A stretch of 64,000 bases of DNA from Sphingomonas sinipercae (GTDB lineage: Bacteria; Pseudomonadota; Alphaproteobacteria; Sphingomonadales; Sphingomonadaceae). The number at the start of each line of letters is the position of its first letter. Within the stretch, counting starts at the first letter, position 1. The stretch is from assembly GCF_011302055.1 (NCBI RefSeq), contig NZ_CP049871.1, positions 454,501 to 518,500 on the forward strand. The letters are read 5' to 3'. Positions 9,551-44,535 of the stretch are shown here, in pieces. Both the position numbers and the translations under genes were made by a program. The notes beneath the pieces are model-generated. The model searched no databases. It saw nothing but the letters and a program-made list of their open reading frames with translations, and was not told the origin of the DNA.

Positions 9551-10350
9551 CAGGCTTCAGCGTGCTCCCTGGCCGTCGTTCCGGCGGACCGCCCCCGCGG
9601 GCCGTTGAAATATTCCTGAATCCACGGGTGATCCAATGCCAATAGTTCCGGAATCGTTCCGACCGCGATCACCTTCCTTTCGGCGATGACCGCCACTCGG
9701 TCGCAGATCGCGTACAAAGTGTCGAGGTCGTGGGTGATCAGGAACACCGTCAGGTCGAGCTTCTTTTGCAGCGACAGGATCAGTTCGTCGAAAGATGCGG
9801 CAGCGATCGGGTCGAGGCCGGCGGTCGGCTCATCGAGGAACAAGAGCTCCGGATCGAGCGCGAGCGCGCGCGCAAGCCCGGCGCGCTTGACCATGCCGCC
9901 CGAAAGCTCCGACGGATATTTGGGGCCGGCGTCGGCAGGCAAGGCGCTCATCGCGATCTTGTAGGACGCGATCTCATCAAGCAGCGGCGGCTTGAGGAAC
10001 GGGAAATATTCCCGGATCGGCACTTCGATATTTTCGGCCACGGTCAGCGTCGAGAACAAGGCGCCGTTCTGAAACAAGATACCCCAGCGGCGGCGAATGT
10101 TCTTGGCCTCGTCCTCCGGGCGGTCGATCATGTTCTCGCCAAGCACTTCGACCTCGCCGGCCTCGGGCTTCTGGAGGCCGATGATCGAGCGCATCAGGAC
10201 CGACTTGCCGGTGCCCGACCCACCAACCACGCCGAGGATTTCGCCGCGGCAGACGGTTAGGTCGAGACCGTCGTGGACGACCGCTTCGCCAAAGGCGTTG
10301 CGCAGGCCGCGCACCTCGATGACCGGGTCGCATTGTTTGCGCTCGTTCAT
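9550..10350 (-). CDS. mlaF: MlaF-like ABC transporter ATP-binding protein
   Basis: This 266-residue ATPase powers lipid transport by the MlaE permease. Walker A is GGSGTGKS, the ABC signature is LSGGMVKRAG (the Mla-type variant with M in place of Q), and Walker B is LLFLDEPTAGLDP. I take the ATG at 10350, which overlaps the permease TGA as ATGA; an ATG two codons earlier (10356) is equally possible. A longer open frame to 10656 runs through the permease gene and is not coding. Confidence 0.93.
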   Translation of the reverse strand: MNERKQCDPVIEVRGLRNAFGEAVVHDGLDLTVCRGEILGVVGGSGTGKSVLMRSIIGLQKPEAGEVEVLGENMIDRPEDEAKNIRRRWGILFQNGALFSTLTVAENIEVPIREYFPFLKPPLLDEIASYKIAMSALPADAGPKYPSELSGGMVKRAGLARALALDPELLFLDEPTAGLDPIAAASFDELILSLQKKLDLTVFLITHDLDTLYAICDRVAVIAERKVIAVGTIPELLALDHPWIQEYFNGPRGRSAGTTAREHAEA

Positions 10351-40961: not shown

Positions 40962-41788
40962 GCCCGGATGCGCCGATCGAGCGGGCGAAGGAGCTCGCTC
41001 GGGAAAGCAATTTCCTGAGCTTGTGCCGAATCGGCTTCCTGGGCCGCGGCGTGCTCTACATCCTGATCGCTTTCCTCGCGCTGCGGACTGGGCGGACCGA
41101 GGACCTGACGGGCGCACTCACCTATCTCAACGAAGGCGTCGGGCGCGTTCTGCTGATCGTCATCGCCGCGGGGCTTAGCGCTTACGGCTTGTGGCGGCTG
41201 GCCGACGCGGCGTTCGGGATCGAACATCCGGGCGGCGATGCGAAAGCCATGCGCAAGCGCGCGGCGGCCGGCGGGATCGGGCTCATTTACCTGTATCTCG
41301 CCTACAAGGCGGCGCGCATCCTGCTGGCCGGCGAGGCGGGCGAAATGAGCGCCGCGGAGCAGGCGGATACGGTGCTCGACCTGCCCGGGGGCGCACTGGT
41401 GCTGGGGTTGGCCGCGCTGGGGCTCGCGGCGGGCGGGCTCAACCAGATTCGCAAGGCATGGATATGCACGTTCCTGCGCAATCTCGACCATCGCGGACGC
41501 GCGCCATTCGTGCTGTGGCTGGGCCGCATCGGCTACACCGCGCGCGGGGTAATTTTCCTGACCATCGCCTATTTGATCGGTCACGCCGCCCTAGACGGGG
41601 AGACCGACGAGGTCGGCGGCATGGAGGAGGCGCTCGACTTCTTCTCCGGCCCGGTCCTTTACGCTGTGGCGCTCGGCCTGCTGCTATTCGGCGTTTTCAG
41701 CCTGATCGAGGCCGTCTTCCGCCAGATGCACGAGCCGCCATCCGCCGACGCCATCAAGCGCGACGTACAGGCCAAAGTAGGTAGCTGA
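40958..41788 (+). CDS. DUF1206 membrane protein
   Basis: This 276-residue protein is built of three DUF1206 repeats of about 70 residues, each with two membrane helices (RIGFLGRGVLYILIAFLAL..., AAGGIGLIYLYLAYKAAR..., RIGYTARGVIFLTIAYLIG). The family is of unknown function and often lies beside stress or transport genes. The GTG start overlaps the peptide transporter's TGA (GTGA), so the two are co-translated. Confidence 0.85.
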   Translation: MSPDAPIERAKELARESNFLSLCRIGFLGRGVLYILIAFLALRTGRTEDLTGALTYLNEGVGRVLLIVIAAGLSAYGLWRLADAAFGIEHPGGDAKAMRKRAAAGGIGLIYLYLAYKAARILLAGEAGEMSAAEQADTVLDLPGGALVLGLAALGLAAGGLNQIRKAWICTFLRNLDHRGRAPFVLWLGRIGYTARGVIFLTIAYLIGHAALDGETDEVGGMEEALDFFSGPVLYAVALGLLLFGVFSLIEAVFRQMHEPPSADAIKRDVQAKVGS

Positions 41789-41804
41789 AAACACGTCCTT
41801 TTGC

Positions 41805-41837
41805 TGGACTCCGCAAAGCGGAGAACATATCTAGAAC
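41805..41837 (+). promoter_or_regulatory. LexA (SOS) box in a promoter
   Basis: GAAC at 41823-41826 and GAAC at 41834-41837 are separated by seven bases, giving GTTC-N7-GTTC on the other strand, the known alphaproteobacterial LexA operator. It overlaps a possible -10 (TATCTA, 41828-41833), which lies 17 bases after a -35-like TGGACT at 41805-41810. Transcription would start near 41840, right at the coding start of the radical SAM gene, which suggests a leaderless message. Confidence 0.7.
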
Positions 41838-41839
41838 AT

Positions 41840-43084
41840 GTGGCCCAGCTCGACCTCCAGGCAAAGCTCGCGATCCTTGCCGACGCGGCGAAATACGATG
41901 CCTCCTGCGCCTCGTCGGGAACGTCCAAGCGCGACAGCCGGGGCGGAAAAGGCGTCGGTTCGACCGAGGGCATGGGCATCTGCCACGCCTACGCCCCGGA
42001 CGGCCGTTGCATTTCGCTGCTGAAGATATTGCTGACCAACAGCTGCATTTTCGACTGCCATTATTGCATCAACCGCAAGAGCTCGAACGTGCGGCGGGCG
42101 CGGTTCACGGCCGAGGAAGTCGTCCGGCTGACGCTCGCTTTCTATAAGCGCAATTACATCGAAGGCCTGTTCCTCTCGTCGGGCATCATCCGCTCGTCCA
42201 ACTATACGATGGAACAGATCGTGGAGGTGGCCCGGTCGCTGCGGGAAGACCACGACTTTCGCGGCTACATCCACCTCAAGACCATTCCCGACGCCGATCC
42301 GGAATTGGTGCGCCTGGCGGGCGTCCATGCCGACCGGGTTTCGATCAACGTCGAATTGCCGACCGACGCCGGGTTGAAGCGACTGGCGCCGGAGAAAGAC
42401 GGCGGCCGGATCGAAGGCGCAATGGCCGACGTGAAGGCGTCGATCGTCGAGACGAAGGACGCGCGGAAGCGATTCAAGTCGGCACCCAGGTTCGCACCGG
42501 CAGGGCAATCGACGCAGATGATCGTCGGCGCCGACGCGGCCAACGACTGCGATATCGTGGCGCGGTCATCTACCCTTTACGACCGGTTCAAACTTCGCCG
42601 GGTCTATTACTCGGCCTTCTCCCCCATCCCGGACGCAAGCGCGGTGCTGCCGCTGCAACGGCCGCCATTGATGCGCGAGCACCGGCTTTATCAGTCCGAC
42701 TGGCTGATGCGTTTCTACGGCTTCAAGCCGAAGGAAGTGATGGCCGCGGCCGGGGCGGATGGAATGCTTCCGCTCGACATCGATCCGAAGCTCGCCTGGG
42801 CGCTCAAGTTTCGGGAAAGTTTTCCCGTCGACGTCAACCGCGCTCCGCGGGACATGTTGCTGCGCGTGCCCGGGCTTGGGACCAAGGCGATCGACCGGAT
42901 CCTGGCGTCGCGCCGAGTCCGTAGCCTACGCCTTGAAGACGTCGCGCGGCTGACGGTGTCGGTCGCCAAGGTTCGTCCGTTCATCGTCACCATCGACTGG
43001 CGGCCGACCTTGCTGACCGACCGCGCCGACCTGCGCGCGCTGATCGCGCCGAAGCGGCAGCAGCTCGAGCTATTCGCCGCCTGA
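41840..43084 (+). CDS. DNA modification/repair radical SAM protein
   Basis: This 414-residue radical SAM enzyme (TIGR03916-type) is predicted to repair or modify DNA bases. The cluster motif is CIFDCHYC with Cys69, Cys73 and Cys76. The family-defining KYDASCASSG lies near the N-terminus. The C-terminal helix-hairpin-helix (VPGLGTKAIDRILASR) binds DNA. I start at GTG 41840, because the TTG further upstream (41801) would put the coding region across the LexA box and promoter. Family length is near 415. It overlaps in function with the next gene (UdgX); the gap is two bases. Confidence 0.92.
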   Translation: MAQLDLQAKLAILADAAKYDASCASSGTSKRDSRGGKGVGSTEGMGICHAYAPDGRCISLLKILLTNSCIFDCHYCINRKSSNVRRARFTAEEVVRLTLAFYKRNYIEGLFLSSGIIRSSNYTMEQIVEVARSLREDHDFRGYIHLKTIPDADPELVRLAGVHADRVSINVELPTDAGLKRLAPEKDGGRIEGAMADVKASIVETKDARKRFKSAPRFAPAGQSTQMIVGADAANDCDIVARSSTLYDRFKLRRVYYSAFSPIPDASAVLPLQRPPLMREHRLYQSDWLMRFYGFKPKEVMAAAGADGMLPLDIDPKLAWALKFRESFPVDVNRAPRDMLLRVPGLGTKAIDRILASRRVRSLRLEDVARLTVSVAKVRPFIVTIDWRPTLLTDRADLRALIAPKRQQLELFAA

Positions 43085-43086
43085 CC

Positions 43087-44535
43087 ATGGCGATGACCGA
43101 CGTTCGCCGGGTGACGCTGACGGCGCCGGACGATTTCGAAGGCTGGCGCGATTCGGCGCGCGACCTGGCCGAAGCTGGTGTGCCGCCCGACGCAGTCGTC
43201 TGGCAGGTTGAAGGCAAGGAAGCCGACTTGTTCGGAAGCGACGCGCCGGCCCTTACTGCACCGAGCTTCGCCGTGCCCCGCTCATTCGTTTCGCTTGCCA
43301 GGGACGCGATTTGCCATTCGGACCCTGAACGGTTCGCGTTGCTTTATGCCTTGCTGTGGGAATTGCGCGGCAATCGGGCGGCCGTTTCCAATTCCGCCGA
43401 CCCGCTGGTGCGCCGTATCGAACTGCTCGCCAAGGAAGTCCGCCGCGACCTTCACAAGATGCATGCGTTCGTGCGCTTCCGTGAGCTGGACGAGCCGGGC
43501 GGCGACACACGGTTCGTCGCTTTCTTCGAACCCGACCATCACATCGTCCGCCGCGGTGCTCGCTTCTTCGTCAACCGTTTCGCCAACATGCGCTGGTCGA
43601 TCCTGACGCCGGAACTGTCCGTGCATTGGGACGGCGACGTGCTGACCGAAGGGCCGGGGGCGACGCGCGCCGAGGCGCCCGCCGGCGATCCGCTGGAAGC
43701 CATGTGGGGCACCTATTACGCATCGATCTTCAACCCCGCGCGGCTGAAGGTGGGCGCGATGCTGAAGGAAATGCCCAAGAAATATTGGCGCAACATGCCG
43801 GAAACGTCGCTCGTTCAACCGCTGATCGCAGGCGCGCGTGCACGGGAGCTGGAGATGATCGACCGATCGGCGGCGAAGCTAGGGTTCGATAATGCGCTGC
43901 AAGCGGAGCGCGGGATCGAGCGCGGCAGCAACATTCGTGCCGCCTGGGAAGCCCTGTTCAAGGAAGCGTGGGGCTGCACCCGATGCGAACTTTTCAAATG
44001 CGGGACGCAGACCGTGTTCGGCGAAGGGCCGCTTGACCCCAAATTGATGTTCGTCGGCGAGCAACCGGGGGACCAGGAGGACCTTGCCGGGCGGCCGTTC
44101 GTCGGCCCCGCCGGGCAATTGCTGGACCAGATGCTGGAGGAAGCGGGCGTCGACCGCGCCCAGACCTACGTCACCAACGCGGTCAAGCATTTCAAGTTCG
44201 AACGGCGCGGCAAGCGGCGCATCCACAGCAAACCGGACAGTGGCGAAATCGAAGCCTGCCGGTGGTGGATCGACCAGGAGCGCACGCTGATCCGACCGCC
44301 GATTACCGTCGCGCTCGGCGCCACGGCCGCGCGTTCGCTGTTTGGCAAGGCGGTGACGATCGGCAAGGTGCGCGGCAGCCCGATGGCGCTCCCCGACGGT
44401 TCGGAATGCTGGGTGACGATGCACCCCAGCGCGCTGTTGCGGATGCCGGAGCCCGAGCGCCGCGAGGAGGAGCGCGCCCGCTTCGTCACGGAGATGCGCG
44501 AGATCTGGAAGCGGGCCGAGACACTCGCCGTCTGA
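43087..44535 (+). CDS. udgX: DUF4130-UdgX fusion, uracil-DNA binding protein
   Basis: This 482-residue protein has two parts. The N-terminal half (about 1-240) is DUF4130, present in partners of the radical SAM protein. The C-terminal half (about 260-482) is a UdgX/family-4 uracil-DNA glycosylase with GEQPGDQED (near residue 324) and HPSALLR (His446). The R-loop has KRRIHSKP with His380, the residue that in UdgX forms a covalent bond with uracil sites in DNA. A CTRCELFKCG cysteine group fits the iron-sulfur cluster. The pair is predicted to be induced by the SOS response. The start is ATG; a second ATG is two codons later. Confidence 0.94.
   Translation: MAMTDVRRVTLTAPDDFEGWRDSARDLAEAGVPPDAVVWQVEGKEADLFGSDAPALTAPSFAVPRSFVSLARDAICHSDPERFALLYALLWELRGNRAAVSNSADPLVRRIELLAKEVRRDLHKMHAFVRFRELDEPGGDTRFVAFFEPDHHIVRRGARFFVNRFANMRWSILTPELSVHWDGDVLTEGPGATRAEAPAGDPLEAMWGTYYASIFNPARLKVGAMLKEMPKKYWRNMPETSLVQPLIAGARARELEMIDRSAAKLGFDNALQAERGIERGSNIRAAWEALFKEAWGCTRCELFKCGTQTVFGEGPLDPKLMFVGEQPGDQEDLAGRPFVGPAGQLLDQMLEEAGVDRAQTYVTNAVKHFKFERRGKRRIHSKPDSGEIEACRWWIDQERTLIRPPITVALGATAARSLFGKAVTIGKVRGSPMALPDGSECWVTMHPSALLRMPEPERREEERARFVTEMREIWKRAETLAV

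Follow-up and report, generated by a model that had tools for sequence, protein, structure and literature searches.

A conserved SOS-type operator precedes the TIGR03916 radical SAM and DUF4130-UdgX genes of Sphingomonas sinipercae in a predicted leaderless layout

In Sphingomonas sinipercae, a gene for a radical SAM protein and a gene for a DUF4130-UdgX fusion lie behind a short direct repeat that resembles a LexA operator. Does this repeat place the pair in the SOS response, and if so, what kind of repair unit would it control? The locus was analyzed within a window of 64 kb, the whole stretch of DNA under study. A preliminary description had read the repeat as the LexA operator of a leaderless promoter. 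The features relevant to that reading are as follows.

41805..41810, + strand: candidate −35 element TGGACT, 17 bp before the −10 element, whose T, G, and C match the three positions kept in the window's family
41823..41837, + strand: LexA operator GAACATATCTAGAAC, GAAC-N7-GAAC (reverse complement, GTTC-N7-GTTC), found at the orthologue in 93 of 95 same-class genomes
41828..41833, + strand: candidate −10 element TATCTA, inside the operator, with box offsets 5 (T) and 6 (A) kept in aligned promoters
41840..43084, + strand: radical SAM protein TIGR03916, 414 aa, GTG start, weak helix-hairpin-helix match
43061..43075, + strand: codons for the C-terminal QLELF, a candidate beta-clamp-binding motif in the tail of the radical SAM protein
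43087..44535, + strand: DUF4130 (TIGR03915) fused to UdgX (TIGR03914), 482 aa
43120..43806, + strand: DUF4130/TIGR03915 match from the profile search, aa 12-240
43810..44502, + strand: UdgX match (TIGR03914), aa 242-472, with the His380 codon at 44224-44226

The first gene product matched TIGR03916 ("putative DNA modification/repair radical SAM protein"), which we take to be the same family as COG4277, with 565.2 bits against a cutoff of 343.5. In an alignment of 15 TIGR03916 sequences, the CxxxCxxC motif and three more cysteines were invariant. The HHH_3 match of the window's protein was weak (E = 0.01); matches in three other orthologues were better (E = 9e-4 to 5e-5), and all lay under the curated cutoff. 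A predicted structure of moderate quality (mean pLDDT, 69.2) matched MiaB and HydE-type radical SAM enzymes at low TM-scores. SplB was absent from the four NCBIfam matches and from the 50 of 1,452 PDB matches listed, and a SplB identity for the protein was set aside for lack of support in either. The organism names of close homologues were mostly Sphingomonas or Sphingomicrobium. In 6 of 10 second genes scanned among the relatives, a hemerythrin-domain gene directly followed the radical SAM gene, with DUF4130 further downstream; this arrangement places a protein that binds oxygen next to an enzyme that is probably sensitive to it.

The second gene product scored 205 bits against TIGR03915 (cutoff, 112.25) and 124.2 bits against DUF4130 (cutoff, 27). 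Its UdgX half contains all three motifs by which UdgX is defined in PMC10359453 (GEQPG, KRRIH, and HPS(S/A)(L/V)(L/V)R): GEQPG from residue 324, the KRRIH histidine at residue 380, and HPSALLR from residue 446. All three align with the matching stretches of the solved Mycobacterium smegmatis UdgX. The claim that gene 2 joins DUF4130 to a UdgX with His380, the predicted covalently bonding residue, therefore stood, with the bonding role assigned by motif. A structure model for DUF4130 was weak (mean pLDDT, 65.9), and the 50 of 579 PDB matches listed were UDG-superfamily entries and one phage polymerase, with nothing for the DUF4130 fold. Fused UdgX domains at eight other loci lacked the first CxxC cysteines in the printed stretch and kept GEQPG; at one further locus, motif A of the UdgX-like half was altered to AGQPG.

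The two families travel together. TIGR03916 is widespread: it exceeded its cutoff in 43 of the 147 genomes sampled within the order, in 18 of 289 within the class, and in 84 of 398 across the phylum, in samples that overlap. TIGR03915 passed its own cutoff in exactly these 43 genomes of the order, and a Caulobacter control genome carried both. In 78 of 80 further loci, mostly from Bacteroidota with some gammaproteobacteria, a home-made DUF4130 profile found a homologue downstream of the radical SAM gene and on its strand. We scanned 61 second-gene proteins, namely, the window's own, 17 close homologues, and 43 of the 78 proteins from the further loci. All 61 matched TIGR03915; UdgX was matched by 18, confined to the Sphingomonas-like set, and by none of the 43 from other loci. 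These data are read as indicating an operon core of radical SAM protein plus DUF4130, to which UdgX is an addition.

The distribution bears on another account of the pair, in which uracil in DNA is what it repairs, UdgX does the essential work, and the radical SAM protein assists UdgX. The UdgX fusion in the S. sinipercae genome fits that account, as does the published name of a related operon, the uracil-DNA glycosylase base excision repair system (PMC8565304). The regular pair, however, is radical SAM plus DUF4130, and the restriction of UdgX to 18 of 61 second genes, with 0 of 43 outside the Sphingomonas-like set, makes a uracil-centered function unlikely in our judgment. For the same reason, the "uracil-DNA glycosylase" label given to the Bacteroidetes operon may fit poorly the genomes examined here.

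With the genes identified, the operator itself could be considered. GAAC-N7-GAAC lies upstream of the radical SAM gene, with 2 nt between the end of GAACATATCTAGAAC and the GTG at 41840. By pattern count, GTTC-N7-GTTC occurred twice in the 64-kb window, against 1.88 expected, and 51 times in the 2.07-Mb genome, in which the reversed pattern occurred 50 times. The only other copy in the window, at 9645-9659, needs no explanation beyond chance. The genome-wide count was uninformative and was dropped as evidence. A matrix built from six sites placed GAACATATCTAGAAC 9th among the 51 boxes, level with the 10th; the training sites are within this ranking, and six are too few to rely on. Since counts alone are at chance level, the significance of GAACATATCTAGAAC rests on conservation.

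Conservation was examined in 124 distinct genomes, 95 from the same class (Alphaproteobacteria) and 29 from other classes of the phylum, which we inferred to be beta- and gammaproteobacteria. The exact box was present within 150 bp upstream of the conserved N-terminal motif of the orthologue in 93 of the 95 same-class genomes. Elsewhere in the same loci, it was found in 8 of 2,522 windows of 156 bp, a background to be read with caution in that these windows are largely coding, and the reversed pattern was present at the orthologue's upstream region in 1 of the 95. In 15 of 17 family labels, every genome had the box, although members of a family do not count as independent cases; L051 and L095 were the two same-class genomes without it. 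The comparison of promoter regions in relatives thus bore out, at the level of sequence, the claim that GAAC-N7-GAAC at 41823-41837 is the alphaproteobacterial LexA operator, and on that footing the interpretation of the preliminary description is supported. One outcome that the preliminary description had named as refuting it, a box missing ahead of the orthologues, was looked for in this comparison and did not occur.

The alphaproteobacterial box was absent from the same upstream region in all 29 other-class genomes. CTGT-N8-ACAG, which we take to be the E. coli-type LexA box, was instead present exactly in 19 of 29 (background, 4 of 886 windows; reversed pattern, 0 of 29) and with up to one mismatch in 24 of 29 (background, 21 of 886; reversed pattern, 2 of 29). 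Every genome carried it in 5 of 8 other-class family labels, a count that is not corrected for kinship within families. Both operator types were missing in five other-class genomes (L110, L132, L135, L136, and L139). Might the box nevertheless be a chance match and the pair lie outside SOS control? The window and genome counts, taken alone, would allow it. Conservation in 93 of 95 genomes and the presence of the other LexA-type operator in 24 of 29 argue so strongly against coincidence that we reject it as very improbable.

Of the further loci, 76 could be anchored. The published Bacteroidetes motif CTAA-N5-TTAG was found within 250 bp in 23 of these (background, 7 of 1,088 windows), and GGA-N5-TCC was found in 14 (background, 57 of 1,088); many of the 76 loci therefore have neither. 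Taken with the counts for the alphaproteobacterial and E. coli-type boxes, these figures suggest that, in the sampled lineages, an SOS-type operator tends to remain close to the TIGR03916 gene even as the operator sequence changes.

Three of the genomes without either LexA-type box (L135, L136, and L139) share the family label f189. They carry the near-palindromes GGTCTCATccaATGAGACC and GGTTTCC-N5-GGAAACC, the latter overlapping the start codon; GGTCTCATccaATGAGACC was found at a single place per genome. The palindrome GGTCTCATnnnATGAGACC, present in the same three genomes, was considered as a regulon operator and rejected: because it occurred at one place per genome, at the TIGR03916 locus, no regulon was found.

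Other candidate SOS genes were sought in the S. sinipercae genome. Neighboring open frames were inspected for 21 of the 51 boxes, most of which had AT-rich spacers, and one protein from each of 10 of these 21 was searched against family profiles. GTTC-N7-GTTC precedes lexA (177.2 bits; cutoff, 110.95) and recA (577.7 bits; cutoff, 325.3), two of the genes at which the preliminary description had proposed to look for further sites. Boxes were also found before uvrA (594.2 bits, under the cutoff of 729.8, in a gene truncated by the locus end), rmuC (173.4 bits, under the cutoff of 810), and an ImuA-like gene (59.1 bits, under the cutoff of 150). Another lies 23 nt before the first start codon of a second radical SAM gene, of the PA0069 family (443.9 bits; cutoff, 360). 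With starts assigned mechanically, the distance from box to first start was 18 nt for lexA, 20 for the ImuA-like gene, 11 for uvrA, 18 for rmuC, 23 for the PA0069 gene, and 73 for recA, each greater than the 2 nt at the TIGR03916 gene. One more box, near a DarT-like gene, was not counted as a promoter site; it is probably intragenic, because the family match starts at profile position 71.

The short distance at the TIGR03916 gene bears on the second part of the earlier reading, a leaderless transcript. The likely start of the radical SAM gene is GTG 41840 and not the first in-frame TTG at 41801; orthologues in the window's family mostly have ATG or GTG at the position of this GTG. Reading downstream, the layout is TGGACT, 17 bp, TATCTA, GAACAT, and GTG, from which transcription is predicted to start at 41840 and yield a leaderless mRNA. 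Among the 93 conserved boxes, 77 were oriented as GAAC and 16 as GTTC. The start codon followed a GAAC box by exactly 2 nt in 47 of 93 and by 1 to 3 nt in 51 of 93. Within these 51 aligned promoters, box offsets 5 and 6 were almost fixed, as T and A, respectively, each in 50. A 2-nt gap in about half of the boxes is as expected if the −10 element lies inside the operator and the start codon is the +1 position. The 16 boxes of opposite orientation indicate that the operator has been kept while the arrangement changed.

Support for a −35 element was confined to the window's own family, which contributed 33 of the 47 promoters with a 2-nt gap. The pattern T.G.C at the 17-bp distance was present in 19 of these 33, with no more than 2 in slid controls; outside the family it was present in 2 of 14, not above slid controls (up to 3). 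A generic consensus promoter scan gave no site in the GAACATATCTAGAAC region. The leaderless claim is thus favored by the 47 of 93 boxes that end 2 nt before the start and is weakened by the promoter scan and by a −35 pattern that exceeds controls in one family.

A LexA-controlled operon could also produce a short-leader mRNA or be read through from upstream, in which case the 2-nt spacing would reflect compact promoters and not true leaderless translation. The failed promoter scan would suit this possibility, as would a same-strand open frame that ends at 41788 and the 46 of 93 boxes with another gap or orientation, some of which have Shine-Dalgarno-like sequences and room for leaders. Promoters of the 2-nt class, however, are too compact to fit a ribosome-binding site between the operator and the start codon, and their −10-to-start distance is the usual −10-to-+1 distance. 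We therefore consider a leadered or read-through transcript improbable and retain the leaderless layout as the preferred prediction.

A further conserved feature lies at the other end of the radical SAM protein, which terminates in QLELFAA. Clamp-binding motifs have the consensus Q, L/M, x, L, and F/L/W near the C terminus, and the QLELF tail looks like a candidate beta-clamp-binding motif. The pattern Q[LMFAVI]x[LMVI][FWLY] occurred in the last 22 residues of 102 of 123 orthologues, against 3.5% of shuffled tails and 35 of 2,106 other windows of the same proteins. The stricter QL[SDEGTN]LF was found in 62 of 123 (shuffled tails, 0.05%; other windows, 0 of 2,106). The pattern was written after the 15-sequence alignment had been seen, and those 15 are among the 123. 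The loose form was also present in 73 of the 76 further loci. It was missing from 21 of the 123 tails, including 7 of 8 in family label f166, which have QLGFGF; four orthologues end in QMGLWG. The motif was present in 13 of 115 tails of gene 2, which include those of a few open frames other than DUF4130, and is not claimed for that protein.

Taken together, the data favor, with a probability of roughly 80%, a LexA-repressed, leaderless, two-gene SOS operon for a radical SAM protein and DUF4130-UdgX. LexA would bind the direct-repeat operator and block RNA polymerase, because the operator contains the promoter's −10 element. Upon DNA damage, RecA-stimulated cleavage of LexA would free the promoter. 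The G of the GTG would be the first base transcribed, and the message encoding the radical SAM enzyme and DUF4130-UdgX would have no leader. The QLELF motif may anchor the radical SAM protein to the replication clamp, and close to replication forks this protein and DUF4130, its regular partner, may act on a damaged base. UdgX, as an added module, would excise uracil and bond to the abasic site.

A broader proposal, which we put forward tentatively and at somewhat less than even odds, is that TIGR03916 is in general a clamp-tethered, SOS-induced radical SAM repair enzyme whose partner at forks is DUF4130; it would be the radical-chemistry equivalent of the clamp clients ImuB and DinB. The promoter-proximal operator of its gene would be rebuilt to match each lineage's LexA specificity, and UdgX would be optional. 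Different SOS-type operators at the same gene across lineages suggest that the TIGR03916 gene answers DNA damage, and the clamp-like tail points to the replication fork as the place to look; together, they make the function of this family testable.

SOS regulation of this kind of operon is not new, and the present locus is another member. PMC8565304 cites earlier reports from Verrucomicrobia and Alphaproteobacteria of SOS control of a two-gene operon, COG1573-COG4277 (a UDG-based system), and extends this by prediction to Bacteroidetes. The placement of the pair in the SOS response, which operator conservation supports, was therefore overstated as a novelty. In PMC1839093, CC2333 is listed among four UDG-family genes of Caulobacter. 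A 2025 paper on SOS timing in Caulobacter confirms the GTTC-N7-GTTC motif; the words uracil, glycosylase, and radical SAM are absent from its main text. Among the papers listed in a limited search of the open-license literature, there was no earlier mention of the leaderless layout or of the clamp-like tail; neither "clamp" nor "leaderless" appears in the main texts of the papers found under DUF4130, TIGR03915/6, or COG4277, and no open-license paper was found on UdgX together with LexA. The E. coli-type operator at this gene in beta- and gammaproteobacteria was likewise not met in this literature, which was searched on those other subjects.

Compared with the UDG/COG4277 operon, as described in PMC8565304, the S. 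sinipercae locus has the same kind of gene pair under each group's LexA-type regulator, with GTTC-N7-GTTC as the alphaproteobacterial motif; it differs in its order (radical SAM and then DUF4130-UdgX) and in its predicted leaderless layout. A figure legend of PMC3765255 groups DUF4130, SplB-like radical SAM proteins, and UDGs together in the SOS network. The domain partners are the same, but the radical SAM protein here is TIGR03916, with no SplB among the 50 of 1,452 PDB matches listed. M. smegmatis UdgX (6AIL and 8IIE) shares GEQPG, the KRRIH histidine, and HPS(S/A)LLR with gene 2, in which UdgX is, unlike there, fused behind DUF4130 in an SOS-type operon. The ImuB protein of the ImuA-ImuB-DnaE2 mutasome is likewise damage inducible and has a clamp motif: in mycobacteria this is QLPLWG, which, according to PMC10421592, is required for ImuB clamp foci, and four TIGR03916 orthologues end in QMGLWG. 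ImuB is a polymerase relative, whereas TIGR03916 is a radical SAM enzyme with putative clamp binding.
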